Assembly: GCA_907163375.1 (NCBI GenBank) | Contig: CAJQUW010000952.1 | Location: 72,001 to 136,000, forward strand | Length of the DNA: 64,000 nucleotides | From: Prostheceraeus crozeri | Lineage: Eukaryota > Platyhelminthes > Polycladida > Euryleptidae | Direction of reading: 5' to 3' | Shown: positions 21,001 to 62,005 of the stretch, one piece after another | Position numbering within the stretch: the stretch's first letter is position 1 | Layout: each line of letters opens with the position of its first letter | Notes under the pieces: generated by a model | Databases searched by the model: none | The model's input: only the letters and a program-made list of their open reading frames with translations | Told to the model about the DNA's origin: nothing | Program-made: the position numbers and the translations under genes

Positions 21001-24000
21001 ATCACTTAATACCGCATCCGAGATTGAGGCGCTACTCATTACATGATAAGAGTAATGCCTTGTGGTTAGAGGGTATGCTTGCACGTCAGTAGTAACAAAA
21101 GGTCCAGAATAAACACAGCGCGCCCCCCCCCCTCTGGAACGACAGAGGTTGTGGTCTGTCGTGGTGTGCCGGCCAGGTTGGTTCACAACATGTTCGCTGA
21201 CTCCCCCCCCCCTGCAACGACAGAGTGTGAGACTCGAGTGAGTTGGTCCGACCGCCTGGTTGACTTGGGCGACCGTCCAGGTTGACGTGGGCGACCGTCT
21301 AGGTTGACGTGGGCGACCGTCTAGGTTGACATGGGCGACCGTCTAGGTTGTCGTGGATGGTGAAATGGCTGCCAGATTCGGATTCAGCGTAAAATTCTGC
21401 ATCTGTGGTGTGATTTCCAGCTCAATCGGCGAGAAAAACTGTTTCTTCAAAATTTTGGCAGAGTTAAAATGTGGGACGTTTTGATGTGTAGGGCCCAAAC
21501 GTATCCTCGGATGAGAAAACGGAGGCCAGATTCGGATTCAGCGTGAAATTCTGCATCTGTATGGTGAATTTGAAAGCAATCGGAGAGAAAAAATTTTTCG
21601 CTGACGTCCCCCCCCCTCTGGACAGCTTGCTTCGATTTTGGCTTCCAGTGGACGGATTTTGTTGTGCGATAGCTCGTTTGAAAGCTAAGAGTGAGACGAA
21701 TTCAGTGAAAGAATCGGCTTGTTCCTATCTGTCTTCGTTTAGATGTGAGACGCCATTTAAGATTTTGGGACATTGGCGAAAAACGACAGAGTTAGAATTT
21801 GGGATGTTTTGGGCTGTAGCTTCAAAACGAACCATCGGATGGGAAAACGGATTTCAGATTTGGAATCAGCGTCAGATTCTTTATCTGTATGGTGAGTTTC
21901 AAGTCAATCGGAGAGAAAAAATTTTCACTGACGTCCCCCTCCCTTTGTTCTAACTTTGGTTCTAGTGGACGGATTTTGTTCGTTCGACTTGCATTGGAAA
22001 GAGGATGAAACACTGCTCGACCGCATTTTTCGTTGCGAGTCAATCGGAGCAGCCGTTCAAAAGTTAGAGCGGTTACAAGATTTTAGGTCGGAGCTCGCTT
22101 ACCTGAAAAATCCTAAGTGTCAGAGTGAGTTTGTATGGGTAAAATTTTGAAAATTTTCCAAAGTGTAGAATTTCGACCTGGGACCGTCACCAAAACATTT
22201 TTCATCAAATTTTGAAATTTCACTGACGTCCCCCCCCTTTGTTCTAACTTTGGTTCTAGTGGACGGATTTTGTTCGTTCGACTTGCATTGGAAAGAGGAT
22301 GAAACACTGCTCGACCGCATTTTTCGTTGCGAGTCAATCGGAGCAGCCGTTCAAAAGTTAGAGCGGTTACAAGATTTTAGGTCGGAGCTTACCGGAAAAA
22401 TTTTAAGTGTCAGAGTGAGTTTGTATGGGTAAAATTTTGAAAATTTTCCAAAGTGTAGAATTTCGACCTGGGACCGTCACCAAAACATTTTTCATCAAAA
22501 TTTGAAATTTCACTGACGTCCCCCCCCCTTTGTTCTAACTTTGGTTCTAGTGGACGGATTTTGTTCGTTCGACTTGCATTGGAAAGAGGATGAAACACTG
22601 CTCGACCGCATTTTTCGTTGCGAGTCAATCGGAGCAGCCGTTCAAAAGTTAGAGCGGTTACAAGATTTTAGGTCGGAGCTCGCTTACCTGAAAAAATCCT
22701 AAGTGTCAGAGTGAGTTTGTATGGGTAAAATTTTGAAAATTTTCCAAAGTGTAGAATTTCGACCTGGGACCATCACCAAAACATTTTTCATCAAATTTTG
22801 AAATTTCACTGACGTCCCCCCCCTCCCCCCCCTCTGGACAGCTTGCTTCGATTTTGGCTTCCAGTGGACGGATTTTGTCGTGCGATAGCTCGTTTGAAAG
22901 CTAAGAGTGAGACAAATTCAGTGAAAGAATCGGCTTGTTCCTATCTGTCTTCGTTTAGATGTGAGATGCCATTTAAGATTTTGGGACATTGGCGAAAAAC
23001 GACAGAGTTAGAATTTGGGACGTTTTGGGCTCTAGCTTCAAAACGAAGCATCGGATGGGAAAACGGATTTCAGATTTGGAATCAGCGTCAGATTCTTTAT
23101 CTGTATGGTGAGTTTCATGTCAATCGGAGAGTTTCAAGTCATCAGCGAGAAAAATTTTCAACATTTTTCGGAAAAACGACAGAGTTAGAATTTTTGCGAT
23201 GGCTGCCTACTGTAGAGCCAAAACGAAGCATCGGATGGGAAAACGGAGGCCAGATTCGGATTCAGCGTCAAATTCTACATGGAAATGGTGTATTTCCAGC
23301 TCAATCGGAGCACTAGAACCGGAGATAGACGGGATTTTTAGTGTTTGGATGATGGGTATTACGTCATCAGCTGATCGCCACACACTATATAAGCTGGGAA
23401 CCGACGGAGACTTGTCATTTAGAGGAGAACGATTGTCAGAGGTAGGTCGTCTCTCTGAGCTCCGATGATAGCTTCGGACATTCCAAATTCCAAGTTTCTG
23501 TAAGAAACCGACTTAGAAAATTTCATTGCTGATATCAGCTAAGCCGTCAGACTTAGAGGTTCGCCAGGAGATGGCCTTCGTCTCCAGGCCATAAAAGACT
23601 CCAAAACTTTAAAGGCTCGTAACTTTGCTTCTACAAGTCCGTTTGACTTGATTCAAAAAAGGTTCGGTCGCTATTGACCTGCCCTAAGTGATGGACTACT
23701 TATAAAATTTCATAAGTAGTGCTAAAAAGTTGAAAATTTTAAATTCACTAGTTTTGGAGGTTTTCTGGGGTTTTCGACCCTGCTGAAGTCAATGAAAGCA
23801 TTTTTAATGATGTCTGAGCAAGTCTTCTCATGGTATAAGCGGCTTTTCACTGAAAGCGAGCAAGACACGGAGAGTTTTGCTGTAATATTCCACTGACAGG
23901 GTGTTCCTTCGGGACGGCGGACGATGCCGTAGTGATAAGTGTGGCAAGGGAATGTGTCATATTTAAGACCGTAACCGCTGGGACAACTCATGTCTCATGT

Positions 24001-27000
24001 TGGGCATTTGACACAGCTCTCAACGTAGCACTTTGAACGCCAATCGGTTGAGTCTTAGCTATCTTGTCATGGGTGGCCTCTAAACATCTCCATTGCAAAA
24101 CGCTGGTGAATCAAGCTCTCTACGGCTTGCTATCAAGCAGATCAAAGCAATAACTTGGGATGTTTCCTCAAGGTTTTCAAGTATGCTGAGTTCAAATCTG
24201 CTATCAGATTTCAAATTTAACTAAGACTAAGGCAGCTTTGAGGGGTTAGATCCCAGCTACTGTTCACTACCTTTGACTCGGCGTTGCTGTTACCACTTCG
24301 GGGCAGTGACAATGATGTCTTCAGCTGTAAAGAGCGGGTATCGGGGAAGATCTCTCACTTCCCTAGTGATCAGTACAAGGCCTTCGGGCTGTCGACGGGA
24401 TCGAGTGCCACTCACTACACTCAAATCTATCATTCCTCACTAAGTGTAAATTACTGACTATACATTTGTCCTGCCATCAGGTTATTTTTGACTTGCTATC
24501 TAGTTGAATAGTCTCTTGCTATCAAGAGATTCACTTCTACTCATAAAGCACATCATCGCTGTAATACCTCCTTTGCTCGAGCGTTCCTTCGGGACGGCGG
24601 GTACTGCCGTAGAGGGATTGTGTTGCACGGGTTGTTCGTCGTTTGTTAGACCGAAACCTCTGAGCCGTTGCTCATGTTGGGCGTTCGACTTCATACTCAA
24701 CGTGACGCTTTCTTTCGCCAGGTCAGAGTACTTCAGCCATTCGACAAAGGTTAGTCTTTATGATATGGAGTAGAGTGAAATGTAATTCATTAGATGTCCC
24801 TTCAATGATTGCTCCCATGATAAACGTTGATGAGACAAATGAAATGATTCTCATCTTCCCTTTTCAATGATTGAAATCTACTAACACACTACCGTATAAT
24901 CGGCCACTATGGGGCAAGACATGATAGAGCCTTCAATGCGCTTTGCCCTGGGCAGTCTTTAGACTGGCGAATACTATCATTAAGTTGAATCTGCTATCAG
25001 TCAACTTGAACGTTGCGTCGCATTAGAGGGGTATATAAACCACTGCCTCTCATTTCATTTCATTTCAATCATGCAGACGCCGAACAGTCAAGTCAGCTCT
25101 CCTCGCGGACCGCAGTTAAGGCCGCGAAAATTATTTGAGGAGTTTGTCAGGCTAGAGGAGCAAGACAGAGTTTTTAATAATCTTGCTCGGATTGGCAATC
25201 CGATGACAGCAACTGCTGTCAATCCAACGGAATGGCGCTACATTCCACTTTTTAGCCATGTACCAGTTAGTGTGGAAGTCGACAGTGTTACCAAAGAGAG
25301 AGTCAAAGACTCTCTCAGTAGAATTGGTAGGGTGTAAGATGACATTACTCCCGAGAACGAACCATCGGCTCTCTTAAGGACCACCATGGGGCAAGACATG
25401 ATAGAACCTCCTCGCGGTTTGCCCTGGGCAGTCTTCGGACTGGCGAATACTATCATTAAGTTGAATCTGCTATCAGTCAACTTGAACGTTGCAAATGAAG
25501 TTCGGTGTAATACTTCCTTTCGGCGGGCGTTCCTGTAAAGGGCGGCGGTGAAACCCGTAGCTATGTATACCGCAAGGGACATTTGGCAATGGTCAATCTT
25601 GTTAAACCTCTCTGCGTCATGTTTGCAAGTGATTGCCTCTGTCTCAACGTAGTATGCATTCGCGCCAGGGCGACATTTAGCCAACTGTCGAAGGTTGCCT
25701 AAAACTTTCCATTGCATACGTTATGAGAACAATGAGTTCTACCTGTCTCTATCAATGAGACGAATTGATGAATGGAATGAAATGGGAGGACACTCACGCG
25801 CCACACGCAACATAACACACTTCTCTCTTCCGTAGTCTAACAAGCACTTTACACATGGATCGCAGTCGATTGCTATCCCTGTATCAGAAGTGTAAGCTAT
25901 CTTAATTTTATTTGACACTATTTCATCTATCATCATCGTCCATATGAAATGTTTTAAGATTTACAAGTTAGAAATAAAGTTTCAATAGTGTATGCGTTAG
26001 AAATAAAGGTGTAACTGTTTGTAAAAATAAGATCGCAAGATTTACTAGTTTACAAGTTAGACTAAGTGTAAATTAAAAATAAAATTATAACTGTTTTTCA
26101 AGAGTTTACAAGTTAGAAATTTAAGTTTTAGAGCTGTTTGTATATCAAAATAAAGTTTCAAGAGTTTACAAGTTAGAAATAAAGTTTCATAGTGTATATG
26201 TTTAGAAATAAAGGTGCAACTGTTTGTAAAAAATAAGATCGCAAGATTTACTAGTTTACAAGTTAGACTAAGTGTAAATTTAAAAAATAAATTATAACTG
26301 TTCACGTGTTTTTAAAGCGTTGATGCAACGATGAACAATTAATAAGCTGAAAAGTTTTAGATTCACTTTAACATTATCATATGTTTACAGATAGAAATGT
26401 ATTACAGCAAAGCTACTTCATGAGTTAGTTTGCCAGAGTGTATCATCTCAAACTTTTTACTCCGACTGTGGAACATTGATTTCCATGATGAGAGATTTAA
26501 ATAGTTAGATTCGATGGCGAACAAGATTTACTAGTTTACAAGTTGGACAAAAGTGTTCTACTATTTGTAAATGAAAGATATCATTTCAACAGTTTACCAG
26601 TTAGAAATAAAGTTTCAACAGTCTACAAGGTTAAAAATAAAATCATAAATGTTTAAAGAGTTTACAAGTTAGAAATTAATTTTTAATGGTGTATACGTTA
26701 GAAATAAAGTTTTAGCTGTTTGTAATATCAAAATGAAGTTTCAAGAGTTTACAAGTTAGAAAATAAAATGAAGGTTCACAGTTTACAAAGTAAGAATAAA
26801 GGTCTATCTGTATGTTAGAAATAAAACAAAGTTTCAACCGTTTACAAGTTAAAAATAAAGTTTTATCTGTTTGTATGTTAGAAAGCGAATAAAGTTTCAA
26901 CCGTTAACAAGTTAAAAATAAAGTTTCAATAGTTTGCGAGTTAAGAATGAAGTTTCAGTAGTGTGTGTATATTAAGAATAAAGTTTTATCTGTTTGTATG

Positions 27001-30000
27001 TTATAAATAAAATGAAGCTTCACCAGTTTACAAGTTAAGAATAAAGTTCTATCTGCTTGTATGTTAGAAATAAAACAAAGTTTCAACCGTTAACAAGTTA
27101 AAAATAAAGTTTCAATAGTTTACAAGTTAAGAATAAAGCTTCAATGGTGTATACGTTAGAAATAAAGTTTTAGCTGTTTGTATATCAAAATAAAGTTTCA
27201 AGAGTTTACAAGTTAGAAATAAAGTTTCAATAGTGTATATGTTAGAAATAGAGTTTTATCTGTTTGTTAAAATAAGATCGCAAGATTTACTAGTTTACAA
27301 GTTAGACTAAGTGTATGAGCAAGCTCTGAATACATAAGATATAGTAAAATCATCAACGAATAAATCATATCGCAATAGGAATGTACATTGACAGATTCAA
27401 ATAGATGCTCATACGTTCATAAAAGAGAGTTTGTGACATCAGCATTAATTGGAAGTGCGTGAGCGCACTGGAAACTCCTGATCGTCTTGTGATTGGACGA
27501 GACGTCTCATCCATTCACCGCTTAGGAAAATCTTATAAAAGGTAGTGCACCAGCTCTACTCTTCACATTTATCTTTCATAAGGTGAGTGTTGGTGAGCTC
27601 CCGCTATCAGGTTGTTTTGACTTGCTATCAAGTTGAATAGTCTCTTGCTATCAAGAGTTTCACTTCTGCTCATAAAGCATATCATCGCTGTAATACTTCC
27701 TTTGCTCGAGCGTTCCTTCGGACGGCGGGTACTGCCGTAGAGGGATTGCGTTGCACGGGTTGTTCGTCGTTTGTTAGACCGAAACCTCTGAGCTGTTGCT
27801 CATGTTGGGCGTTCGACTTCATACTCAACGTGACACTTTCTCTCGTCAGGTCAGAGTACTTTAGCCATTCGACAGGGTTAGTCTTTATGGTATGGAGCAT
27901 TTCGAAGTGTGTTGATTGACTCATGTTCATTGAATGACTATTCACATGATCATCATAGGTAAAATGAAATAAAACTTACGTATCCTTTTCAGTGAATTTG
28001 CCTTCAACGTCGAATCTAACTACTTTAATCTTCGATATGGATACGAGTATCACGAGAAAAATTGAATCTTATCGCGTCTCTGCCAAGATGGAGGAAACTC
28101 TCATTGAGCAATGTAAGTTTTTGTGTGATGGGGCAAGGTTGCAGGTTTGTGCTAAATATAAAACTCTTGAACTAACATCATTCGGTTACCATGTGTGTTG
28201 AGCATCGGAATTAATTTTCATAAACCTTTGAATAACATCAAGAAATGTAAGAATAATATCCTTACTAATTTTCAACAAAAGACCCTTAACGTCTTTTTAC
28301 TCCGCGATTTTCAAAAGCGAAGCTCATTTCTAAAATTTATAATGCACTCTAATATCTCCCTCCCTTTTTTCAGTACAGCAGCGCATCATGAACAGAGAAC
28401 CTATTCCTGAAGGGGCACTTGGTCGAGCCTATGAACGACTGGGAATATGTAAGTATCTTAATGAATGAATGCTGTCATGTGTTCTGTATCATCATGGCTG
28501 ATAGCATGCATTCTATCATTCATCAATCTCATCTCTTTTCCACTCTACAGTTTTGGCAAGGCAGGAGAAGTGGGAGGAAGTCGCGAGGCGGAAATATGAT
28601 GACGATTTTCCGACCCTACCCTCTCGCCCATCTACCTCAGCTCCACTATCTGAGCAGCCATCCACCTCGGGCATGGTCATCGCCCAACCTCCACCAACCC
28701 ACCCATACCTGCTCCTCGTCGCCCGATCCCTCCGCCAACACACCCAAGCCGCGGACTCTTCCACCCTCGGCTCGCATCCCCCTTCTACTCCTCTTGAACC
28801 ATCGGTGATGGTGGAAGAAGCAGATTCTCTTGATGGTAAGTTACAGTGATGGTTACAAGGGGGACAAGGACTTAAACAAAAACGCACGCCACACTTGGAA
28901 TTGAATAGTCATGTTACTGATCGCTTTCCTTCCTTTTCTCAACAGATCTCGCAAACGGTTTATTCTGGCGACAACGTTCCTAACCGCCCCGCCAACTCTC
29001 ACCATATCCACCACCGAGGCATACAGCAGGGCGACATTCCCTCCATCATCTCCTAGACATAGGTCGCTTAGAAGGAAAATAGAGACGATCGAGTTTAGTG
29101 TGCTGAAGAGGACCCCCTACCACCAACTTATTGTATGGTAGGGTTTGAAAGATTTCCTTTAGGCGGAGGTGGGTGTTTTATGGGTGATGGGTGGTTGGGA
29201 TTCAAATTAGATGGATCACAGAGAGAGACTATCGGTGGTCCCTCGACGTGTTTGGCTAATAGCATCTTCGTCAATTGTCTTTGGCATAGGCGATAGTCCT
29301 TCATTCACCAAACGCCCCCTCCTTTCTCAAGGAAAGTGTTACAGCTATATTGGAGTGGTGAAGGTGTGGGGTGTGTAAGTTTGTAACACAAAAATCACTT
29401 TAAGAGTCTTTATTTACGAGATGGATTAGGTAATGATTTCTCTTTTTAGGGTGATGATGCTTAAGTTCAGTCAAACACTATCGCGGGGGGGGGAAGGGAC
29501 GATGATGGGCCGAACACAACCCCCCCCCCCCCCGAATACGAGCAGGGAGTTTGTGCTGACTGTGGGCACATCGTTCACGAGGGGGAGATAAACGCGATCT
29601 GCTCCGACACATCAGCCTCAAAATCGTGTGTTGGGTCCTAACCCTAGTTCGCCATCTTATCTCCCGAGGTGGGAGGATTGGTTGTCCTCTATTGAACAAC
29701 GTCTCCTTTTCTTTGCGACTTCTTCGGATTCATTCATTTGGAGTCTCTTTTTGGTTATTATCTTCACATAGATCTTTCGATCATATCAAACACGAACGTA
29801 TTCCTACACCTACAGGTACCTCCTCTAGCCGATATCTCTGAACTGAATCAATGAAATATTTAGTGAGGAAACCTACCCAGATGGGACATCCTCAAGAAAC
29901 CATTTGCTAACTTTTGTGAGGGGAATGGTTTCTATACAAAAATTAATCCTTTGATAGATGGCGACCTCTTGTTTTAGGAAATTTAGGTCCAACTTGAATA

Positions 30001-33000
30001 GAATAAAAAGCCGCTTCATCTACCAGTAAAAATAAATATGTAAACAGAATCTGATCATCAATACTGGATCAAATAGTTAGAGCGGTTGGAGTGTTCAACA
30101 TACCCTCCTCTTCCTCGCTACAGGAAGGTAAATCGGATGAAGATTCTTGGTTAAATCTTTTCAATATTCAAGGACTTCCTCACGCCTAAAAAAATATAGT
30201 TAAATTGCAAACGAACGCGGGATGGGGGTTAGTGGCACTCATTTGTTGATGAGTTATAGATAGAAATCTGCCAAGGGGTTTTTGTTTTTAAATTCAAATT
30301 TGCATTAGAAAGTTATAGTGGGCGGCGCAGGCTCCTTCAATCTTCCAAAAATTTTTTAATATAAGCACAAATTAAAAAAGCCAAGTCATTTCTGTTAGTA
30401 GATTGACGAAAATCGCTATGTTTTAAAGTATGCAGTGTTATCCATTCTCCGACTACAATGATGTAAATGATAATCGTTTCCGTCGAAGTAAGTATCAAGA
30501 GTGGGAAACTGAATTAAAGTTTGATGACTTCAATAGTGACGACATGAAATTGTAAAGATCTAGAGAATTTGAGAAATTTAATACAGTAAGATAGTGGTTT
30601 CACGTCTGGAGAAGGGTTTAAAAGGCGTTAGGTTATACACCAGCCACAGGTAAGGCTAATGAGCGAGTTGTTAACCTTTTGCTGGTGTATGAGGACAATA
30701 CTCAACATGGCCTTACCCTGTGGAGATTCCAACATTCATCGCCTTTACAAACCATATACTGTAAATCGATTAAGGTTGAACATTTCATATGCGACCGGCT
30801 GCACACGACCATTTTGGTCCGGAAAAATAAATGTTCTAAGTCATTATGAATGGTGCAGCGGGGTTAAACTACAAATATGGAGCGGCATGGCCCAAAGCTT
30901 AAGGGAGTTTTTCATATAGAGAAGATAATGGTGGATGAACTAAGTTCCTCTTCGTGTCATCTATGCTGACATCGAATGTTATATCGATGATAACATCCAT
31001 CGACCAGCAGCCATTTCCTGCTATGAAGTATGGCATGACCATTTCCAAAATAGAAAAAATAAAATTCACTTCTGGCAAGGTGAGGATTGTATTTACCCAA
31101 TTTCACTACAATTCCTCGAACAGGCCTGTTAAAAATTTCAACAAAGTATGATGGGTGAACTCTATCGCAGATCATTGCATATTGACAGCAGTGATGATTC
31201 AAAGCAAAATTTGATAGCTGCAACGCCTTGCCCCAAAATGACGTAGGAAATACATTTGACGATGATAAGATTTAAGAAAGTGCGCGACCATGATCACATC
31301 ACTGGTAAATTTAGAAACGCACTCTGTTCACAAATGTAATTTTTCATCTCTAGGGATGAAGCGGCGTACATTACCACGTCATTTTCCATAAATTTCACGG
31401 GGCTTTTTTTTTTACGACAGCCATATGATAAATAAAAGGAGGTTTAGGTCCAAAATGAAAGAGATAAAGATAGTATGCAGTTTTGGATCTTTTTGGTTGT
31501 GGTTTGTTGGATTTGTGGATTTTGGAAGCTTGATTGTAATAGGGCAAAACGAGAGAGAAGTTTATGGCCATGACAGCAAAAGTGCCTTGTCGATAAAACT
31601 AAAGAAAATAAGACGGTCTATTTGTGAATATAAAATTTGTTAGATTCCTAACCAATTTATGACTGTCATCACTGGGCCCTCCTCTCGTGCAAAATCTAAA
31701 GTCTCTTCCACTAACACAAAATCTTAAGAAACAATTATCCCAAAATCTAACCCGATGAAGTCATCACACGGAAAGGAGTCTTTCCATATGCATATTTTGA
31801 TTGCGATTAGTAAACTCGGCGAGACTTCTCTTCCGCCCATAGATAAATTTAAAAATGATTTGAGACCGGTGTACACGAATGTAAGAACCGAAGATTATGA
31901 TCATGCACAAGATGCATGGATAAAAATTTGACTGCCATCGCGTATTGCGCGCTAGGACATTTGGTGAATATATGAATTGCCTACCTTAAGTTAGATGTAT
32001 TTTTGCTGGCTGATGTATTTCAGGAGTTTCGACGAAGTGGCTATTAGAAGAAGATAAGTTAGATCCGTCCACTTTGTCAGTCTGCCAGCCATGTCATTTA
32101 AGTTGCAGCTGCTTTTTAAAATGACTGGTGACAGACCATTCATCTCTTTACAAGATCCAGAGATGTATAAATTTATTTGAGCGAGGAATTCGCGGTGGTC
32201 TGCACATTTCTGTAAAATAAACATTTAAGGTTAAAATCAAAAATAGTAGGCAATGATCAGACTCATCTGAAGTATTATGACCAAAATAATTTGTATGGTA
32301 GATTCATTATCCCAAACCGCACATCACTCTGAGTTTAGCTGGTTAGATGATAGTGAAATTCAACATTTCTCCAACTCCTTCCAACATACTAGCAATTCCA
32401 GTATGAAGGTGATTGGGGATATTATTTTGAGATAGGATCTCGAATCTATCCAAATAATATTAGGAAACATCAAAACCGTCAGATTTTTCACACTCGCAAC
32501 CAGCTCCCGAATCAGGTGAAGTGACCAAAGATATGTTTTCCGACTTTATGAAACAATTTCATAAAGATTTAGAATCATGCGGTTCAACCCGACTATAAGG
32601 CCAATGTCCGCAAACCTTGCTTACTCACCCAGTATGATAAAGAAAACTAGTCCCACTCTAGTCCACGTCTTAGCATCTGTCATTAAAAATTTTATTTGAG
32701 CAAATGGTATGATTTTAAAAATAGAGTTCACCGCGCATTATTAAATTTAGACCGAAAGCCTTCCTCAAAACCATATATTGATAGCAACAGCCAGAAAACG
32801 TGCACTAGCCAAAATAATTTGAAAAAGATTTTTATAAATATCGCTAGAACAACAGTCTATTTGGTTAAGACGATGGAGGATGTTAGAAAGCGCGTAAACT
32901 ACATAAACTAGTTAGGATGATGTTACAAAAGTATCACAAAATGTGCGGAGTCTCATCACCTCTATTCATCGATAGAGACATTAATCGATGAGGACCTTGT

Positions 33001-36000
33001 AGGTGTTTAAAATGATAAAAATCTGAAGTTGAGTTGTGCAAACCATCTATATTGGTCAAGCTGTTATCTAGATTACTCTCTAGCTTGAGAATGTCACCAA
33101 CCTCTTTTATAAAAATACTAAATACCATGTCCTCTCGTAAAGAGGTTCTGCGCGTGTTTGTTGGGGGTGGTGATACAGATATGTTTCTTTCTTAGGTATT
33201 ACCACTCAAAAAGATTTAAGAATTTCAATGAAGTAGTGAAACAATCTATTAGAAAGATATTTTGATACATCAAATTATCCTAACTGATCACCACTCTACT
33301 CCATCAAAAATAAGGCAAAAACTTGGCTGCTTTAAGGATGAGACAGCAGGGAAAGGAAATAGATGAACAATGATTCTCCTCCGTCCCAAAAATGTTCACA
33401 GGTATGAAATTAAAGGATAGCGAGCGTACGATAGTATTAAGCGTGGCTAAAGGCATATCAAGTAATCCATTGGTCTCTAACTATGAAACATAGCGAAGAA
33501 TTTCAGGGAACGGGAAAGCCTTATAGATAATAAAAAATATAACGTTTGTCAATATGACAATCTTAAAATCTAAGTCGCATGAGATCAAAACTCCTACTTT
33601 TAGGAAACGGGCGCTTTCAGCATTGGGAGGATAAGAGGTGCTGGCTAGAAACACAACTAATATTCTCTTCCACATGGACATCATGACACAAAACATTACC
33701 ACTCACCCAAAAGAATTAAACTCACGATCTACCACATTCAGGAGACGTTTGTAGCATAGATTCATCCTTAACTTCAGTATTTTGATGTTGATTTCTGTAG
33801 ATAAACATTGTTGTTTTATGTATCGCATGAGATTGTTTTTTCCTTGTGAAGATGTGTCCACATCTGTACATTCCCCATGTGATGACTTTTCCACTGAAAG
33901 ACATTTTTCCTATCCCTGTATATCTCCACCCTTCACGAAGTAAAAAGACTTTTTGTATATAACAATGTTTATTGAAGTGCGCTCATGTATATATTTTCAG
34001 TGGATGTTGTATAAAGTCTATTGCTTCACATTCATGTACATATTTCAATAAATGTTGTATAAAGACTTCACTTTGTTTTCCGAATCACTAACGTTATGAG
34101 GGATTTAGTATCTTTCACATGGATGCACTCTTGTAAACCATTGGTAATTTTGATAGCAATAGAGGGTCTCATTGTTTGCGATAGGATGGTAGGAAAATAG
34201 GTATAAACAATATCTGGTGACTATTCCATATGAACGCCGTCTTTGTCTATGATATGAAATCGCGTTTAAAATGTATTTGCTTTTTTTCATCAAAAGAAAT
34301 AGGTGAAATCAGACTCACTTTGAATGTAAAGGTGTTGTTCATGTTTATTAAGGGTCATTGGTTTTCCTACAACCAATCATGTAGTGTAGCTCAGTCAACC
34401 AATTTTACAGCACATGAAATACAGTTTTATCAAAATTTTTCACTCAATTGACAATGGGAAAAGCTCCATCGCCAGTTTAGAAGAGCACTTTGATTTTCAA
34501 TCAAAAAATGACTTGTGATGATATCTGTGCATCATCAGGTAACACTTACATAATCGCTTGTGATAATTTTTCTAACAGGTGGGCAAAACATCGTTGTATC
34601 GCGATTTGCCTAAGCCGACATGTCTATCTAGATAATCAGAAACAGTTTATTGCGCTGGAAGATGTGCTTACATCACTTTCATTCTTCTTGTAAAGATAGT
34701 CACTAAAAATAGCAATAGTAAATTATATTCACAGCCCTGGAATATGCGAGCGTGTGAAACGTTGTTCATCATCAGAACAAAGCGATAACCCATGTCTAAA
34801 AATGGATCCACCTCATTGTCGTAGATGTCAGACATTCGATTAGAGATTCTATTTTCCTTATGGAGACAGCCTGAATCTTTACCCCATTCGTGCGTTGTGC
34901 ATTCCTTTGTCAGTCAATTGATGATGCCTACGTTGTTCACCTTAAACTCATTCATAATGATGAAGTCGTCAGTGAATGAAGGAAAAAAACTCAACGTTTA
35001 AATTGCTCCATTAGCTTATTACATTAAACAGTAGACACATTAGGGAATTTACCAATCCGTGATACTTTTATGAAATCACATAAGCCAGTTATGCTACTCA
35101 ATGCCCGTTATGAAGGAATGGTAAGATGTATGGGTTAACAATCTCGAAGGAGAGCAGCAGGATGGGTGGAAGAAAGGGTTCAGTTTCAGTAATTATATAA
35201 GGCTGCTGTTTTTAAATATTTGCTAGACCATTTAGTCTTCAATTGAACAGCTACTACAAATTCTTTTCAATATTAATACACCAACACTAACAGGCAGAAC
35301 ACCTTCTTTTCAGAAACGAAAATATGCCTAATCACTTACAATTTTTATTATTTTACAAATAGCTAGACTTTATTTCTCGCATACAAAGGCTACTAAAACT
35401 TATTTCTAACGCATACACTTATTAAAACTTATTTTTAAACTTGTAAATTGCTAAAAACTTTGAATTTCTTTCAATATGGAAACTGATTGAACCTTTGATT
35501 TTCTAGCATAAAACAGATTATAACTTCATTTCTAACATACAAATACAGATTAGAACTTTTCTTCTAAAACTTGTAAACTTAACAGATAGAAACTTTATCC
35601 TTAACTTGTAAACTGGTGAAATTTCATTCTATTTCTAACATATAAACGCGCAGATAGACAACTTTATCGTACATATTGCACTATTAGAAACTTTTTCTTA
35701 CTTGTAAACTCTGAAAACTTTATTTTAACTTGTAAACGGTTTTAAACTTTTGTTTTAGATTTCTATCATACAAAAAGATAAACTTGTATTCTTAATATAC
35801 ACACACTATTGAAAGTTGCCATTCTTAACTCGCAAAACTATTGAAATTTATTTTAACTTGTTAACGGTTGAAAACTATGTTTTATTTCTAAATACAATAC
35901 AGATAAACTTTATTTTTAACTAGTAACGGTTGAATGACTTTGTTTATATTTCTAACATTACAATACTGATAGGAACTTTATTCTTAAACTTGTAAACTGT

Positions 36001-39000
36001 TGGAAATTTCATTCTATTCTAACTTATAAAACAGATAGAACTTTATTCGTAACTTACGCACTAGTGAAACTTTTAGTTCTTAATTGTAAACTATTGAAAC
36101 TTTATTTTGAAACTTGTTAATACGGTTGAAAACTTTGTTTATTTCTATCATACAAACACAGATTGAAAACTTTTATTTCTTAAATATATTACCTCTATGA
36201 AACTTCATTCATTTACCTTGTAAACTATTGAAACTTTATTTTTAAACTTGTTAACGGTTGAAAACTTTTGTTTTATTTCTAACCACACAAACAGCTTAAA
36301 CTTTATTTCCAACATTTACAACACTGTTAGAAACATTTATTTTTGAGACAAATCTGTAGAACTGTACTGATACCGAACTAGTATTCTTGCGTTCACTTAC
36401 AAAATAGTAGAAACGCAAAGAGTCTAACGACTTGCAAACGTGAGCCAATCCTTGACCATCTTATTTTTTAAGCAGACACAGATAAAAACTCTATTCTCTA
36501 GCCATATAAACATCTATTAGAAACTTTTATTTCTACACTTGTGTAAACTCTTGAAACTTTATTTTTAACCCTTTGTTAACGGTGTGAAAACAAGATGTTT
36601 TATTTCTAACATACAAACAGATAATACTTTATTTTTAAGCCCTTGGTAAACGGTTTTCGAAAACTTTGCTTTTATTTCTAAGCATACAAACAGACGTAGA
36701 ACTTTAATTCTTAACTTGTACAAAAACTGGTGTTGAAATTTCATCTCTGATTACTCTAGAACATATAAACAGAATAGAACGTTTATTTCGTAACATGAGC
36801 CTGCACTATTGAAACTTTATTACCTGAGAACTTGTAAACTATTGACAACGTTTACGTTTTTAACTTGTAGCACGGTTTAAGATAACTTTGATCTTTTATT
36901 TATATCATAACGAAACAGATGAAACAGCTACTTTATTCTTAATATATGTACACACTACTTGAAACTCATTCATATCTTACTAACACGTTGTAAACTATTG
37001 AAACTGTTTATTTTTTAACTTGTTAACGGTTGAAATAACAATTGTTTATAATTTCTGTAACACACAAACATGCTTTACAAACTTTATTCTTCCAACATAA
37101 GAACACTGTTGACAGACTTTATTTTTGCATCTGTAAACTGTTGAAACTATGAATATGCAATCACTTACAAACATATGTCAGAACGCCTAAGAGTCCAAGC
37201 TTGACAAACAGACGCTAGTTAAACTCGTAGCGATCGATTATTTTAATGAACAAACAGATAAAAACTCTATTTCTAAACATATGACCGACTATTGAAACTT
37301 ATATTTCCTATACTAACCTTGTCCACAACTCTTGAAAACTTTATTCTATTTAACTTGTTCATACGTGTTGAAACTATGTTTTATTATCGTAACCATTGAC
37401 AAAACAGATATAACTTTATTTTTAACTTGTAAACGGTTTAGAAAACTATGTTTTATTTCTACACATACAAACAGATAATACGCTTTTATTCATTAACTTG
37501 TAAACTGCGTGAAAGCTCAATCATTTTATTTGCTAACATACAAAACTAGATCAGAACTTATATCATCTCAACCTTGTAAACGCTGGTGGAAGAGCTTCAT
37601 TTCTATTTATTAAACCATAGCAAACAGGATAAGCAAACTATTATCTCCCTGTAGGATATACACCAATAGTTGAAACTTCATTGCGTAACTCAGCTCAAAC
37701 TATTCGAAACCTTAGTTTTTTAACTCTGTTAAACGGTTGAACACGAATGTTTTATTTTCGTAAACACATACCAAAACAGATATAAACTTTTATTTGTTAA
37801 TTGTATAAACGGTTTGACTGACACTTTGTGTTTTATTTCTAGACCACATTCACACAAACGTAGACGTAGCAACTTTAATTCCTGTGAGAGACGTTTGGGT
37901 AAACTGGTGACACCTTCATGTTCTGATTTCAAACTTGTAAACTTCTTGAAACTTCATTAAGATATACGTAAACAGCTTAAACTTTATTTCGAACGTATAT
38001 ACCATTAAGAACATTAATTTCTAATTCTTGTAAACTCTTGAGAACGTTATAATTAATATTTTTGTAACTTGCTAGACTGTTGGAAACTGTTGTTACATTT
38101 TTCTAACATGGTAAACTGGTTTGATCATGACGAATCTTTCATTCTTACAAATAGTACAACACTTTGTTCAAATCTTGTAAACTTCATTCTAAATCTTGTT
38201 CGCCATCGGAATCTAACTATGTTAAATCTTCATCATGGATCAATGTTCCACCGTCCGGAGTAAAAGTTTGAGATGATCCATTCCTGGCAACTAACTTCAT
38301 GAAGACAGCTTTGCTGGTAATACATTTTCTATCTGTATCACATATGATAATGGTTAAAGTGAATCTAAATACTTTTCTTGCTTTATTCATTGTTCATCGT
38401 TGCATCAACACTAGCTTTAAACACGTGAACAGTTATAAAAAAAAAAATTTCATTTACCAAATACGTACGACACGACTAGTCTTACACTTGCGAACACTCA
38501 GTAACAATCTTGCGATGATCATTATTTTTATAACAACAGATTGCACCTTTATTTCTAACATATATCACTATTGAAACTATTATTTCTAAACTTGTTAAGA
38601 ACTCTTGAAACTTTATTTTGATATACACGAACCAGCTAAGAACTTACATTTCTAACCTTGTTAAAACTAGCTTGCGAACTGTGAAGCAGACGCGTTCTTT
38701 ATTTTTAATTTTACACACTTAGTCTAACTACTGCGTAAAACTCAGTTAAAAATCTTAGGCGCATCTTAGTTTTTTTTACAGAACCGCGTTACACCTTTAT
38801 TTCTAACGCATTACACTAGTTGCAAACTTTATTTCATAACTTGTAAACTCTTTAGAAACATATTCATATGGGATCGACTGGAATGATAGATGAAATAGTG
38901 TCAAATAAAATTAAGCGTAAGCTATAAAAAAAAAAAACACTTCTGATACAGGGATTAAGCGCAATCGACTGCGAATCCATCGTGTAAAAGAGCTTTCTGT

Positions 39001-42000
39001 TAGCGACTCCGAAAGCGGAGAAGTGTGTTTCTATGTAGTCGTGATGGCGCGTCGAAGAGTGTCGCTCGCCATTTCATTCCATATCATCAATTCGTCCTCA
39101 TCTCAGATAGAGACAGTATAGAGACTCATTGTTCTGCCATACGTAATGCTGATGGAAAGTTTTAGGCAACCTTCGACAGTTGGCTAAATGTCGCCCTGGC
39201 GCGAATGCATACTACGTTGAGACAGAGGCAATCACTTGCAAACATGACGCAGAGAGGTTTAACAAGGACTTGACCATTCCGCCGAATGTCCCCCCGTTGC
39301 GGGTGGTAAGTACATAGCTAAAAGCGCGGGTCATCATCAGCACCGCACGACGCTCTAGTACCAGGAAGCCGCCCGTCGAAAGGATAAGTGCTTACACTGA
39401 ACTTCGCATTTGCGCACCGTTCCAGTTGACTGATAGCAAGACTTCAACCTTCCTCGCATGGAGTATTTGGTCCGCCCGATCCGAAGACTGCCCAGGGCAA
39501 ATCGCGAGGAGGATATTCTGCTATCATGTCTTGCCCATGGTGGTCACATTAAGAGAGCCAGATTCGTTCGTTCTGCGGGAGTATTGTCATCTTACACCCT
39601 AACCAATTCCAAACTGAACAGAGTCCTGTTGCACTCTCTCTCGTTCGGTAAACGAGTCGACTTACCACACTAACTGAGTAGGCAAATGCTAAAAAGTGAA
39701 TGTGAGCGCATTCCGTTGGATTGACAGCAGTTGCTGAGCATCGGATTCCAATCCGAGCAAGATTATTAAAAACATCGGTGTCTTGGCGCCTCTAGCCGTG
39801 CAAACTCCGACAAAAATTTCGCGGCCAGTAACTGCGGTCCGACGCAGCAGGAGAGACTGACTTGACTGTTCGCGTCTGCCGCTGAAGATGGAACTGAGCA
39901 GGCAGTGTATATTATCATAACCCCTGCGAAATGCGACGCAAGACGTTCACAGTGTTGGACGTGCATAGCAGATTCAGACTTAATGATATGTATATCAGCC
40001 AAGAGCTAAAGACTGCCCCAATGGAGCACAAAGACGCAGTTGAAGGCTCTCGTCATGTCTTGCGCCATAGTGCAGATTATCGGTAGGTTGTTTTAAGTAG
40101 ATTTCAAATCATAAGAAACATGGGATAAGCGATGGAATCATTTTCATTGAGTCTGCATCAAACGTTAGTCATGGGAAGCAATCATTGAAGGCGCACATCT
40201 ACGCACTACATGTTCACTACTGACTCATATCATAACAGACGAAACCTTTGTCGAATTGAGCTTGAAGACTCTGACCCTGGTCGAAAGATAGCGGCACGTT
40301 GAGTCTATGAGACGAGTCGAACAGCCCAACATGAGCTACAGCCTCAGAGTGAGTTTCGGTCTCAACAAACGACTAACACACGCTGCAAAACAACAAATCC
40401 CACTGAACGGCAGTACGCCAGCGACCAGTCCCGAAGGAAGCGCTCGAGCAAAGAGTATTAGGGAGCGATGATTGACTTATCTATGATAGAAGTGAACATC
40501 TCTTGATAGCAGAGAGACTATTCAACTATAGCAATGCAAAAGATGACCTGATAGCAGACAAATGTATCAGTCTAGAGTAATTTACACTTAGTAGACGGGA
40601 AAAAGATAATTCTGATGTGTAGTAAGTGGCACTCGATCCCGTCGGACAGCCCGAAGTGCCTCGACTGATCACTAGGCGAAGCAGAGATCGCTTCCCCGAT
40701 ACCGCCAGCTCTTCTACAGCTGAGACATCATTTGACACATGCCCCGAAAGTGGTACACCAGCAACGCGCGAGTCAAAAGTATGAACAGTAAGCTGGGATC
40801 AACCACCGTCAAAGCTGACTTAGTGACTGTAGAGATAAATTTCGAAATCTGATAGGCAGATTTGAACTCAGCAAACTTGAAAACCTTGAGGAGACACATC
40901 CCAAGTTAATTGCTTTGATCTATCTTGAATAGCAAGCGCGTAGAGGAGCTGACTTCCACCAAGGCGTTTAAGCCGATGAGAGTTCTAGGCGAGGCCACCC
41001 ATGCGACAAGATAGCTAAACACAACCGATTGACCGTTCCAACGAGTGCTACGTTGAGAAGCAGTGACAAATGCCAACCAAACAGGATGAAGACATGAGTT
41101 TGTCCCATCGGTTTAGCGGTCTTAAATAGAGCAACACAGTTCCCCTAAGCCAGCACTTACATCTGACGGCACTCAGTCCGCCGGTCCCCGAAGGAACACC
41201 CTGTACAGCGTGGAATAATATTACAAGCAAACTCTCCGTCTGTCTTGCTGCGCTTTGTCAGTGAAAAGAGCCCTGATACCAGAAAAGACGGCTCAGACAG
41301 TCACTTAAAAATGCTTTCATAGACTTCAGCAGGTCGCAACCCACAGAAACACGCATCCACAACTCCAGTGCAACTGTAAAATTTTCACTTTTAGCACAGC
41401 TTATGAAAATTTAAATGAAGTAGTCCATACACTTTAGGGCATGTCAACAGAGCAACGAACCTTTTTTGAATCAAGTCAAACGGACTTGTAGAAGCAAAGT
41501 TACAAGCCTTTAAAGTTTTGGAGTCTTTTATGGCCTGGAGACGAAGGCCATCTCCTGGCGAACCTCTAAGTCTGACGCCTTAGCTGATATCAGCAATGAA
41601 ATTTTCTAAGTCGGTTTCTTACAGAAACTTGGAATTTGGAATGTCCGAAGCTATCATCGGAGCTCAGAGAGACGACCTACCTCTGACAATCGTTCTCCTC
41701 TAAATGACAAGTCTCCGTCGGTTCCCAGCTTATATAGTGTGTGGCGATCAGCTGATGACGTAATACCCATCATCCAAACACTAAAAATCCCGTCTATCTC
41801 CGGTTCTAGTGCTCCGATTGAGCTGGAAATACACCATTTCCATGTAGAATTTGACGCTGAATCCGAATCTGGCCTCCGTTTTCCCATCCGATGCTTCGTT
41901 TTGGCTCTACAGTAGGCAGCCATCGCAAAAATTCTAACTCTGTCGTTTTTCCGAAAAATGTTGAAAATTTTTCTCGCCGATGACTTGAAACTCTCCGATT

Positions 42001-45000
42001 GACATGAAACTCACCATACAGATAAAGAATCTGACGCTGATTCCAAATCTGAAATCCGTTTTCCCATCCGATGCTTCGTTTTGAAGCTAGAGCCCAAAAC
42101 GTCCCAAATTCTAACTCTGTCGTTTTTCGCCAATGTCCCAAAATCTTAAATGGCGTCTCACATCTAAACGAAGACAGATAGGAACAAGCCGATTCTTTCA
42201 CTGAATTTGTCTCACTCTTAGCTTTCAAACGAGCTATCGCACGACAAAATCCGTCCACTGGAAGCCAAAATCGAAGCAGGCTGTCCAGAGGGGGGGGGAC
42301 GTCAGTGAAATTTCAAAATTTGATGAAAAATGTTTTGGTGACGGTCCCAGGTCGAAATTCCACACTTTGGAAAATTTTCAAATTTTTACCCATACAAAGT
42401 CACTCTGACACTTAGGATTTTTTCAGGTAAGCGAGCTCCGACCTAAAATCTTGTAACCGCTCTAACTTTTGAACGGCTGCTCCGATTGACTCGCAACGAA
42501 AAATGCGGTCGAGCAGTGTTTCATCCTCTTTCCAATGCAAGTCGAACGAACAAAATCCGTCCACTAGAACCAAAGTTAGAACAAAGGGGGGGGGGACGTC
42601 AGTGAAATTTCAAAATTTGATGACAAATGTTTTGGTGACGGTCCCAGGTCGAAATTCCACACTTTGGAAAATTTTCAAAATTTTACCCATACAAAGTCAC
42701 TCTGACACTTAGGATTTTTTCAGGTGAGCGAGCTCCGACCTAAAATCTTGTAACCGCTCTAACTTTTGAACGGCTGCTCCGATTGACTCGCAACCAAAAA
42801 TGTGGTCGAGCAGTGTTTCATCCTCTTTCCAATGCAAGTCGAACGAACAAAATCCGTCCACTAGAACCAAAGTTAGAACAAAGGGGGGGGGAGGGTCAGC
42901 GAAATTTGATGAAACAAACTTTGGTAAAGGTCCCAGGTCGAAATTCCACACTTTGGAAAATTTTCAAATTTTTCCCCATACAAAGCCACTCTGACACTTA
43001 GGATTTTTTCAGGTGAGCGAGCTCCGACCTAAAATCTTGTAACCGCTCTAACTTTTGAACGGCTGGTCGGATTGACTCGCAACGAAAAGATAAAGCATGC
43101 AGTCGAGCATATGTTCATCCTTCTTTCCAATGCAGAGCTTCGATACGAACAAATCCGTCACTGCAACCAAAAAGTTAGCTCAAAGGGGGTGGGGCGTTCA
43201 GCGAAAATTTTGTCTCTCCGATTGACTTGAAACTCACCATACAGATAGAGAATTTCACGCTGATTCCAAATCTGAAATCCGTTTTCCAATCCGATCCTTC
43301 GTTTTGAAGCTACAGCCCAAAACGTCCCAAATTCTAACTCTGTCGTTTTTCGCCAATGTCCCAAAATCTTAAATGGCGTCTCACATCTAAACGAAGACAG
43401 ATAGGAACAAGCCGATTCTTTCACTGAATTTGTCTCACTCTTAGCTTTCAAACGTGCTATCGCACGACAAAATCCGTCCACTGGAAGCCAAAATCGAAGC
43501 AAGCTGTCCAGAGGGGGGGGGAGGTCAATGAAAATTTTTTCTCTCCGATTTCGCTGGAAACATCCTTCCTAACCCAAAATTTCACGTAGAGTCCGAATCT
43601 GGCCTCCGTTTTCTCATCCGATGCTTCGTTTGGGCGCTACACACCAAAACGTCCCAAATTCTAACTCTGTCGTTTTTTCGAAAAATGTTGAAAAATTTTT
43701 CTCTCCGATGATGTTTTTGTTTTTATTTATTTGTTTTGTATTTATTGACTTGAAACTCACCCATCAAAGAGATAAAAAGAATTTCACGCTGATTCCAAAT
43801 CTGAAATCCGTTTTTTTTTCCAACTTCCGAAGCTTCGTTTTGAAGCTCAGCCAAAACGTCCAAATTCTAAACTCTGTCGTTTTTCACCAATGTCCCAAAA
43901 ATCTTAAATGGGCGTCTCACATTGCTAAACGGAAGACAGATACGGGACAACAAGCCGATTCTTTCACTGAATGTTGTCTCACTCTTAGCTTTCAAACGAG
44001 CTAGTCGCACGACAAAATTTCCGTCCACTTGGAATAGTTGTTGAAAGCCAAAATCGAAGCAAGCTGTCCAAGAAGGGGGGGGGGGGGGGAGGTCAGTTGA
44101 AACTTTTTTTTTCTCTCCCCGATTTCGTGGAAAATCTTCTAACCCAAAATTTCAAGTAGATTCCGAATCTGGCCTCCGTTTTCTCATCCGATGCTTCGTT
44201 TGGGCGCTACACACCAAAACGTCCCAAATTCTAACTCTGTCGTTTTTTCGAAAAATGTTGAAAATTTTTTCTCTCCGATTGACTTGAAACTCACCATACA
44301 GATAGAGAATTTCACGATGATTCCAAATCTGAAATCCGTTTTCCAATCCGATGCTTCGTTTTGAAGCTACAGCCCAAAACGTCCCAAATTCTAACTCTGT
44401 CGTTTTTCGCCAATGTCCCAAAATCTTAAATGGCGTCTCACATCCTAAAACGAGGGACAGATGAGAAAACAAGCCCGATTCTTTCACTGAATTTGTCTCA
44501 CTTACTGTAGCTTTCAAACGCGCTATTGCACGACACAAAATTCGTCCACTGGGAAGCCAAAATCAAAGCAAGCTGTCCAGAGGGGGGGGGACGTCAGTGA
44601 AAAAATTTTTTCCTCGATTGCTTTCAAATTCACTACAGATGCGAAACATTTTCACGCTGAATCGAAATGGCCTCCGTTTTCTCATTCTTCGAGGCTTTCG
44701 TTTGGGCCTACACACAAAACGTCCCACATTTTTTAACTCTGCCAAATTTTGACGAAAAGAGTTTTTTCTCGCCGATTGAGCTGGAAATCACACCACAGAT
44801 GCAGAATTTTACGCTGAATCCGAATCTGGCAGACATTTCACCATCCACGACAACCTAGACTGTCGCCCATGTCAACCTAGACGGTCGCCCACGTCAACCT
44901 AGACGGTCGCCCACGTCAACCTGGACGGTCGCCCAAGTCAACCAGGCGGTCGGACCAACTCACTCGAGTCTCACACTCTGTCGTTGCAGAGGGGGGGGGA

Positions 45001-48000
45001 GTCAGCGAACATGTTGTGAACCAACCTGGCCGGCACACCACGACAGACCCCAACCTCTGTCGTTCCAGCGGGGGGGGGGCGCGCTGTGTTTATTCTGGAC
45101 CTTTTGTTACTACTCACGTCCTCTAGCTCCATCAGGTCACTGGTTCAAACCTTCCCAACGACTGAGGTCACTACAGGCCGAAACATGGTCTCGTGGTGGT
45201 TACCATCTGGTGAGATTTCATAAACGTATCAATTGCCAGGTTTACTTGTGTTCTGAACCAAAGTTTTGTCTTATTTTTTTTGAATTATTTTTGCATTTTT
45301 TCTATGGCGTTTCTTGTGCGCAGGAAGCCTCTTTTGTGTTTCAAGCGCTGTATATATAAAGTCAAATGCAATATAGGTATAAGTCATAACGCCAATTGTT
45401 CACGAAGGCACACAGGATAATCTCATACGCATGAGCCATCTGCGGTTGAGAATAGAGATGGATTATCAGTGGGTTGGTCTTGCTTCAATAGAACCAGTCT
45501 TTATCTATAGAGCGTCATTCTTTATGCCTATGCTTTGTGCTATTACTAAAATTAGGAAATTGTCATATAATTTCTTCTTCTGTCTGCTTAGTACGAGTGT
45601 ATTACCTGGTCATGAGAAAAAGCATCTCAAAATGGTCTTCTTATGGCTTATGGAGGATCGTGACGCGACTTGTGAACGAACGGCATTACGGGCTTATTCT
45701 GTGTGTGCCTAGGCTCTTACAAAGTACATTGCATGGCACCGATGCCTGTCCGTTGTCATTAATGACGCATTTCCACGGACGTAGCTTTGTTTTCAGTTTG
45801 AATGTTGATCTTGTCCCCTTGCAAATTTCGTGTAACTGCGTTAATTTGTTGTATCCTGATATCTGGTGTTATACATTCAAGTTCCTACTTACCTGTAACT
45901 AATGCGGGTTTCATTATTATCGAGATTGTTCTTCACTGAGTTGGAAGCTGTTAGGCAGCCAGCGTTTGTTGGAACAAAGAAGGTCGATTTGCCGTGGGGG
46001 TGGGGAAAGTATAGCTACTAATCACGTTAGCTGTAGACAGGCTTTATTTTGATTCCGGGCATCGCTTTAAATTTTGTGATTAGCTTCAGAAAATCTCTGG
46101 AAGAAAACAATATTCATTTACAAAATTATAGATCATATTGAGGAAACTTCATTTATTTGCAAAAAATGACATTGTTAGCTACACAGTAGCAATCCGTTGT
46201 GTGTCTCCGTGGCATATGGGTTAAGGTGCTTGGCCCTGCGAATCTCGGGGCTGGACCACACGAATATAAGATCGTAGGTTAAAACACTTTAACATGCCAC
46301 GAAAATCATTACGTTATAGTTAACACAAGAATAAGGCGAAATAAACAAACGGACCTAACTGTATTGAAAAGATGTGCGGTGGTTGGACTCGAAGTTATGA
46401 TCCCACTGTTATATTAATAATAATAATAATAGGCATGTATTTGCTGATAAACAGCCACGGCTGATCATAAAACATGTAAAGGGAAAAAGGAGCATATAAA
46501 AAGGCATTAAAGTCAGAGCTACGAAAAAACGCGATTAACAAGATGGAAAGGAAGGAGTTCCTTCCTGTGGAAAACATCTGTGGGGAAAAAAGAAGTTTGA
46601 AGATGACAATGATTAGCATGACTTCAGTCAAGGACGATGATGATTGTGACGGACACAAGAGCCGAACCACGCGAAATTAGAGAGACCGGTAACTGATGAA
46701 GTACAGTCATTTAAACTAAAGATATTGTGGTATACATGGAGGAAAGTACGCAACCTTCGAGAATTCGAGTGAACATTCCGGTGAAGATTAGTGTCAACAA
46801 GGGAAACTAATTTAAAGCTGATAGAACAAGCAGAGGTGCTGAACGAGGAAGCATTCGGAACATGACTTCACCGGAGTCAACACCTCTGTATACTCAGTTG
46901 CACAAAGCTTTAGTGGCGAGAGTTATACTAGAAGAACGATACTCGATACTATGGACGCATTCCACCATGGAATAGTCGGTTGCTGAAAACTAATTGAAGC
47001 TCTTAAGAAGAGAAGTCAGTCAACTTAGTCGCCTAGGACAGCAATGGAAGACTGCGCTCTTTAAATGATTCGAAAATTTGACATGAACTTAAGAGATATT
47101 GAGAAGTGATGTGGATGGCGATAGCAGCGGCTGATTAGTATCAGTCATAGACTAAAGGAGATACGAAGATAGATCGAACTGAACATTCAAAATTCAACAT
47201 GTTATGCCAACAAAATCCGAAGTAGGTATATCAGTAAATTTGTGGGGCAAGAAGGCGTATGATGGGATAAGTATAGAAGACAAGTGTGAAAGTAATACAG
47301 TAAAACATCTGGAATCCGATGTTCTGCACAATGAAACAGCTGACTGGTTAGATGCTTGTTGAAGATAAAAATTGTGTGAGCATACAAGTCAGGATTCTGT
47401 TACGATATAGGAAGCCGATACATCACTACAAATTGAATAGAATGCAAATTGGAGGGTAAGACACCAGGCCCCACATGACAAAATACAGCCTTTTGGGTGA
47501 AGAACGCTGAAGGTATGCATACAAGGTTAAGAACACTACAATGAATTTACTAGGGATCCCACGTTCCTACCAGATGGTCATGGTCACTGGGAAGAACTGT
47601 GCTGATCCGAAAAGACGAAAGCAAACCACCTCGCCCCGACAACTTTCAGGCCAAATTCCTGCCTCCCAACTATGTGGACGTTATTCTGCGGGATCATCTC
47701 GAGCAAGATTAACCACGGCATATCGAATCAAACAGTGTAATGCATCACGTATCAGAAGGGATGTCAGACCAAGTGCAAGAGGGACAAATGAACAGCCTGG
47801 TCATTGATCGAAACGATCCACAATTGAAAGCTGAAGAGGAAGGATGAAAACTATACCATGGGCATGGATCGACCTTTCGCAAAGCTTGCGACTCCATCCC
47901 GCAACTCCTGGATAGTCAAAACAAAGCTTGGACATGACAAGGTCGTTAAAGCTGTTCAAGAAGTAATTGCTGTATCATCTGCCTTCTGGAAGACTTGGTT

Positions 48001-61939: not shown

Positions 61940-61940
<1 letters not shown>

Positions 61941-62003
<63 letters not shown>
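61941..62003. repeat. TAG/CTA trinucleotide run at the LINE-B 3' end
   Basis: About 21 repeats of GTA on the plus strand, directly after the minus-strand LINE-B 3' UTR. It fits a template-slippage tail of a CR1- or RTE-like LINE. Confidence 0.8.

Positions 62004-62005
<2 letters not shown>

Follow-up and report, generated by a model that had tools for sequence, protein, structure and literature searches.

A stretch of 64,000 nucleotides (nt) from the flatworm Prostheceraeus crozeri (C768:72001-136000, hereafter the window), examined within an assembly of 2.05 Gb and 14165 contigs, contains a Polinton-type element at positions 21088-45114. We read it as a member of a defective Polinton family (family A), a polymerase-keeping, arm-duplicated derivative of a lineage of the type of a fuller relative, B, found in the same genome. 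Taken jointly with the origin, replication, and ribozyme steps proposed below, this reading has a probability of about 0.78. A first-pass annotation, made from the sequence alone, had placed the element between these ends, each flanked by the 6-bp target duplication CACGTC, and had called it a Polinton. The boundaries, duplication, and arm positions stand, and the identity is supported by the AGTAGT...ACTACT ends (a motif given in the relevant part of PMC8097293), the duplication, and a Polinton-type polymerase. The outermost inverted block of the two window arms is 129 nt long and 98% complementary, and further inverted blocks of 842, 358, and 320 nt show 94-99% identity. The left-arm alignment reaches 27234, and the right arm runs inward to 37328 and then, as AT-rich repeats, to ∼35.4 kb.

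Copies and genes of family A

Six other copies of the window family were read in separate pieces (C6868, C788, C11572, C13567, C759, and C2013), and all six have long arms, of ∼6-9 kb. Within each copy the longest block shared by the two arms spans 4.1-6.9 kb, at 96.1-98.7% identity, and the share of the arms in the element length is 0.587 to 0.633 in five copies (C2013 was left out, its arm alignment being broken up). The unusual arm length noted in the first-pass annotation is thus a feature of the family, at 59-63% of the length of these five. A local assembly duplication as the origin of the long arms was rejected because the six other copies share them. That the long right arm is an artefact of the window contig draws on the fact that much of this arm is unpolished; it is refuted for the family by the same arms in the other copies, 96-99% identical in the longest blocks, and for the window itself we consider it scarcely credible.

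In its ends and duplications, and in polymerase frames that are for the most part intact, family A has the look of a mobile, replicating element. A genome-wide search with the exact element end, proposed by the first-pass annotation, found 376 occurrences, whereas the reversed-pattern control found 0. The 6-bp duplication is perfect in five of seven copies, window counted. A unique block of 6600 nt is identical in C788, C11572, and C6868; relative to C6868, it has 2 differences in C13567, 3 in C759, and 96 plus 7 gap letters in C2013. The near-identity of the copies suggests that the family spread recently, although repeats can also come to resemble each other through polishing. It has also been considered that A is a passive repeat copied through duplication of genomic segments rather than by transposition, which would fit this near-identity (although assembly polishing could also yield it). 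The differing flanks and five perfect duplications speak against passive copying and make it a very remote prospect. C2013 (L015, L016, and L024) has diverged; it has a single ribozyme candidate in each arm and a polymerase frame broken into several pieces.

In the window, the polymerase lies in pieces in three frames at 30433-33622 (tblastn with P0001, the closest database protein, E 4e-126). Its open frame of 1271 codons is intact in five of the six other copies and broken in C2013. Pfam assigns endonuclease VII (5.8e-7) to this frame, along with weak zinc-finger matches, but not the polymerase model itself; in an alignment of 20 members, A included (alignment A3), the polymerase family PF03175 is found in five (best 9.5e-18), A itself not among them, and endonuclease VII in all 20. 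A search with the A polymerase frame gave 3140 relatives among 6075 candidates. Viral contigs searched with this frame and alignment A3 yielded no confirmed relative, and prokaryote contigs yielded four short, distant relatives. A PDB sequence search returned zinc-finger and weak endonuclease VII matches, and PHROGs and NCBIfam returned endonuclease VII and TATA-binding protein (TBP) names, the remaining matches being weak.

The first-pass annotation had recognized no integrase, protease, or capsid gene in the element, and this is borne out by the A frames searched and by comparison with the B frames. None of the seven A frames searched matched an integrase family, and the six besides the polymerase showed no protease or capsid family either; one of these six had a sub-threshold, chance-like match. 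The B integrase found no match by tblastn in C6868, the C2013 centre, or the window, nor did the B protease and integrase match in A as a whole. A Pfam scan of the window centre in its three plus-strand frames found no match, the frames being broken. Between the two ribozyme candidates of the left arm lies an open frame of 88 amino acids (aa) that is probably coding, because it has two database relatives, both exactly 88 aa long, at 94 and 67-69% identity. The predicted structure of its product was uninformative (predicted local distance difference test score 51.9). This frame is absent from C2013, where a single ribozyme candidate takes the place of the pair, and from the B copy.

The broken polymerase of the window appears to be mostly a matter of assembly. 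We compared the window copy with the best other copy in 400-nt steps (the step at 29089 had no sufficiently long match, and the last 26 nt fell outside the comparison). Identity is 95.8-100% at 21.1-28.7 kb, falls to 76-95% at 28.7-41.45 kb, where there is a sharp edge, returns to 99% at 41.49-42.7 kb, and then stands at 92-93% up to 43.5 kb and 83-90% up to 44.7 kb before rising to 97% at the end. At 28.7-41.45 and 43.5-44.7 kb, insertions mostly far outnumber deletions (commonly 20-78 versus 0-8 per 400 nt). As a control, C6868 showed 0 differences from other copies in 8800 centre columns, and 3-4 mismatches plus 2-4 gap letters in arm pieces of ∼9600 columns each. Owing to the insertion excess and the near-zero differences in the control, we read the frame breaks as an assembly fault: these two stretches look like raw long-read sequence rather than decay, and so do the polymerase breaks and much of the arm difference in the window copy. 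Because the low-identity stretches are rich in insertions and one of them ends sharply, we rejected decay as the chief reason for the broken window polymerase. At ∼34.3-35.1 kb, mismatches and deletions are raised as well, and some real divergence is likely. Of the earlier suggestion of a degenerate or non-autonomous derivative, the second part is supported; what makes the polymerase and right arm of the window copy look degenerate is mainly the assembly. The general caution is that degenerate-looking viral elements in draft assemblies can be unpolished reads.

The fuller relative B and the origin of the arms

P0001 led to the B loci. At least 43 B polymerase loci were scored, at 98-99% identity, with frames of 1272-1277 codons that are stop-free in all 43 scored. 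The copy at C7424:17482-39929 (22.4 kb) has ATCCGA on both sides, ends in AGTAGTAAGG..., and has terminal repeats of ∼0.9-1.2 kb. It encodes a 1272-aa polymerase, an integrase core (PF00665, 4.6e-11, above cut-off), and a TBP gene (L035:3943-4644, plus strand; PF00352, 1.4e-19, above cut-off, with NCBIfam models matching below their own cut-offs). Matches below the curated cut-offs are to proteases (C48, 0.0012; C5, 0.045), which make a protease probable, and to Adeno_PX (0.0026) and the packaging ATPase Pox_A32 (0.026). Frames of 519, 476, and 428 aa, considered for a jelly-roll capsid, had no significant family match. Polymerase, integrase, short repeats, and a 6-bp duplication thus occur together in this copy, which is a Polinton/Maverick with ordinary ∼1-kb repeats and a fuller relative of A in the same genome. 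The exact B end occurs 100 times in the genome (reversed-pattern control, 0). Copies with the same core and short repeats had been named beforehand as a finding that would undo the long-arm observation; B is such an element, and it explains that observation without removing it.

The landmarks needed for the comparison of A with B are as follows (window coordinates).

21082-21087, CACGTC target duplication, left
45115-45120, CACGTC target duplication, right
21088-27300, plus, left arm, terminal inverted repeat, polished
35400-45114, minus, right arm, unpolished and insertion-inflated at 35.4-41.45 and 43.5-44.7 kb
21249-21356, plus, five 22-nt tandem units near the element end (mirror copy 44845-44952)
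21923-22823, plus, tandem array of 291 nt, 3.1 copies (mirror copy 42290-43206)
23386-23392, plus, TATA1, TATA-like box of a putative arm promoter (by eye; kept in B, L034 ∼2559)
23892-24085, plus, structured module M1
24325-24420, plus, folded segment H (second)
24568-24760, plus, structured module M2
24911-24980, plus, RZ1, ribozyme candidate resembling that of hepatitis delta virus (HDV), altered L3 loop
25071-25337, plus, 88-aa open frame between RZ1 and RZ2, with two 88-aa database relatives
25388-25456, plus, RZ2, HDV-like ribozyme candidate within a 66-aa open frame (25338-25538)
25509-25706, plus, structured module M3
25950-27310, plus, AT-rich minisatellite at the inner arm end
27534-27540, plus, TATA3, TATA-like box, one side only (by eye)
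27694-27890, plus, structured module M4, one side only
30433-33622, plus, Polinton-type DNA polymerase B, in three frames in the unpolished window copy
34070-34360, minus, relic of the 3' end of the 519-aa gene of B

Elsewhere in the window are a transposase frame at 7536-8354 (plus; DDE_Tnp_1_7, 1.6e-22), which we take to be probably piggyBac-like, a tRNA match at 3474-3543 (plus; 39.6 bits), and a perfect (GTA)22 microsatellite at 61940-62005.

The A arms have TATA1, M1, H, ribozyme candidate, and M3 in the order of the B left arm, with 97% identity over the stretch from TATA1 through M1 to H and 98% over that from the ribozyme candidate to M3. The A centre matches B over L022:1854-6590 at 92.4%, besides a short M4-to-M1 match at 70%. 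The two polymerases are identical in 1170 of 1273 aligned columns, with 0.208 synonymous (dS) and 0.046 nonsynonymous (dN) substitutions per site (dN/dS 0.22). The centre match stops inside the 519-aa gene of B, and what survives of this gene in A is aa 407-519 (80%) and 371-419 (55%); a diverged TBP-like relic follows (L022:7303-7072, minus strand, 38%). When 15 B frames were compared with A, 12 were unmatched, the three matches being the 519-aa gene (truncated in A), the TBP-like relic, and 27 residues of a frame through H. This comparison gave no protease, ATPase, or capsid gene in A. Because A matches the left arm and polymerase of B and stops in the next gene, A looks like a left end plus polymerase with an inverted left end in place of the rest. 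The first of the two options in the first-pass annotation, a non-autonomous derivative, is supported by this comparison.

Several points weigh against this derivation. The full B gene set comes from a single copy. The outermost sequences of A and B differ beyond AGTAGTAA, and A-B identity is uneven, 97-98% in the arm blocks, 92% in the polymerase, and little or none over L022:1-1853. Given the differing ends and uneven identities, we regard B as read as a relative of the parent of A rather than the parent. In two of the seven A copies, C13567 and C759, the end duplications are mismatched; these are perhaps recombined or misjoined. The differing ends also favor a rival explanation, in which A descends independently among Polintons and its terminal repeats lengthened stepwise through satellites and gene conversion, not by a single inverted duplication replacing the right half. 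So do the array lengths, which vary among A copies and between the arms of a single copy, and M2, M4, and the 88-aa frame, which are missing from the B copy. Stepwise growth sits poorly, however, with the B left-arm order kept in the A arms and with a match to the right side of B that ends within a gene, and we regard it as improbable beside the arm-duplicated derivative.

Ribozyme candidates and structured modules

The arms of both families contain a candidate HDV-like ribozyme. The candidates are predicted to fold into a nested double pseudoknot with P1, P2, P3, and P4 and a J4/2 core. Of the Rfam models, HDV_ribozyme (27.5 bits, in a smaller search) and HDV-F-prausnitzii (26.5 bits) score highest at 25388-25456, on the same bases; the latter model also scores 26.5 bits in B (E 0.64) and 25.8 bits in C2013 (E 0.93). 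A loose descriptor matched the window at 24911, 25388, and one further place; it gave 0.25 matches per shuffled element and its score was equaled in two of 150 shuffles, so that alone it is weak. A strict descriptor (P1, 7; P2, 7; P3, 3; and P4, 5 pairs; J4/2 GCNAA) matched only RZ1 and RZ2 in the window, both in the left arm, and had 0 matches in 1000 dinucleotide shuffles; the right arm had no match, as expected from its sequence errors. It matched twice in each of 10 arms (five A copies), once per arm in C2013, and once in B (L034). Overall, candidates were found in 13 of 13 readable A arms, and the sequence in all four B copies looked at. In three of these (C1590, C136, and C2967) sequence comparison, rather than the descriptor, shows it kept with one change each. 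In C2967 (L040), the upstream sequence looks unrelated in the alignment, whereas the ribozyme sequence and the M3 start are kept. By eye, the ribozyme segment starts 52 nt past the apparent stop of a cargo gene in B and 50 nt past the stop of the 88-aa frame in A, and the slot upstream is perhaps an exchangeable gene slot.

Weighing against a ribozyme, the Rfam scores of 25.8-27.5 bits lie below the curated cut-offs of 44 and 50, and a chance-level Rfam family elsewhere reached E 0.17, lower than the HDV E-values. Moreover, the strict descriptor was defined once both places were already known from the loose one, RZ1 has an altered L3 loop, and coding in the 66-aa frame could explain part of the conservation of RZ2. 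This last point leads to a different explanation, in which the segment serves as coding sequence, either a shared C-terminal exon or a micro open reading frame, and the HDV-like fold is a by-product. The 66-aa frame runs through RZ2 on the plus strand, in frame after the stop of the 88-aa frame, and has a strong GCCACCATGG start context in B; by reading, and with RZ1 set aside, four of the six changes seen in this frame do not alter the protein. The frame has no match in Pfam. On the other side stand the strict fold, absent from all 1000 shuffles, the top scores of both Rfam HDV families at RZ2, and the RZ1 fold, kept despite a frame-shifting insertion. We consider the coding explanation unlikely and retain RZ1 and RZ2 as ribozyme candidates. 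No HDV-like ribozyme in a Polinton/Maverick was found in the literature searched, and the relevant passages of PMC11071296 and PMC6431247 report none. If the candidates cut, they would be new for Polintons within that literature and would raise the question of the RNA product.

Around the ribozyme candidates are the structured modules, M1, M2, and M3 in each A arm with M4 on one side, and M1 and M3 in B. Their helices and anchors were picked by eye. M1, M2/M4, and M3 have common anchors and apparently the same helices, and the case for them rests on these helices persisting in M1 and M3 despite changed letters. The p values for M1 and M3 are 0.017 and 0.003 for the closing helix, 0.086 and 0.005 for D1, and 0.011 and 0.048 for E; they are 0.04 at best for M2, 0.25 for M4, and 0.25-0.50 for the conserved GGGN/NCTC core. 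Against the modules, the fold energies of M1-M3 are ordinary (z −0.55 to −1.11), and with such weak z-scores fold energy was rejected as evidence. No family stood out when M1-M4 were searched in Rfam. Judging splice sites by eye, M1 lies within the apparent first intron of the B arm gene, and M3 lies behind the ribozyme candidate. As a guess, the module RNA might act like viral associated RNAs. Several small hairpins with GCTATC loops were also seen by eye around the modules, at 24130-25000 and 27600-27680.

Proposed cycle and known systems

Some adenovirus variants are protein-primed replicons in which an inverted copy of one end stands in for the opposite end, giving long duplicated ends. 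From these we infer that the second arm of A could have arisen by snap-back copying of the displaced strand during protein-primed replication, a product that would have the same origin at both ends. A would then replicate with its own polymerase and be inserted in trans by the integrase of B-type relatives, which probably moves it. Arm transcripts would start at the TATA promoter and carry the structured RNA modules, and the HDV-like ribozyme would cut them ∼50 nt past the stop of a changeable cargo gene, freeing an M3-bearing RNA. More tentatively, and with less than even odds, we propose that in the Polintons of this genome the arm ribozymes cut an exchangeable-cargo transcript to free module RNAs resembling virus-associated RNAs, and that A, whose duplicated arm brings each element to seven modules and four ribozymes, has become more numerous than its helper and resembles a chromosome-borne satellite of a Polinton virus. 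With the defective A, very recent, and the fuller B in one genome, it becomes possible to test directly whether A depends on a helper and how long inverted ends arise.

A shares with Polinton/Maverick elements the AGTAGT...ACTACT ends, 6-bp duplications, and a family B polymerase, and B in addition an integrase and ∼1-kb repeats. The difference lies in the A arms, 6-9 kb as against 46-1447 bp (mean 402) in intact vertebrate elements (PMC8097293), and in the A frames searched, which gave no integrase, protease, or capsid. Adintoviruses, as described in the corresponding part of PMC11071296, likewise combine a family B polymerase with a retrovirus-like integrase, and B has weak adenovirus-like matches (Adeno_PX and protease); B differs in having a TBP gene, and A in having no integrase or virion frame. 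Long inverted repeats and a viral origin are also found in Teratorn, a large DNA element, but in the relevant passages of PMC6431247 it joins a piggyBac transposase to herpesvirus genes and spans 41-182 kb. In accounts of the R2 and L1Tc retrotransposons, an HDV-like fold is tied to a mobile element, as proposed here; the present candidate, in contrast, sits in the terminal arms of a DNA element, just past a stop codon. Unlike the adenovirus variants, A is a multicopy chromosomal element that has retained a polymerase of its own; it would be a chromosomal counterpart of the defective genomes of protein-primed DNA viruses.

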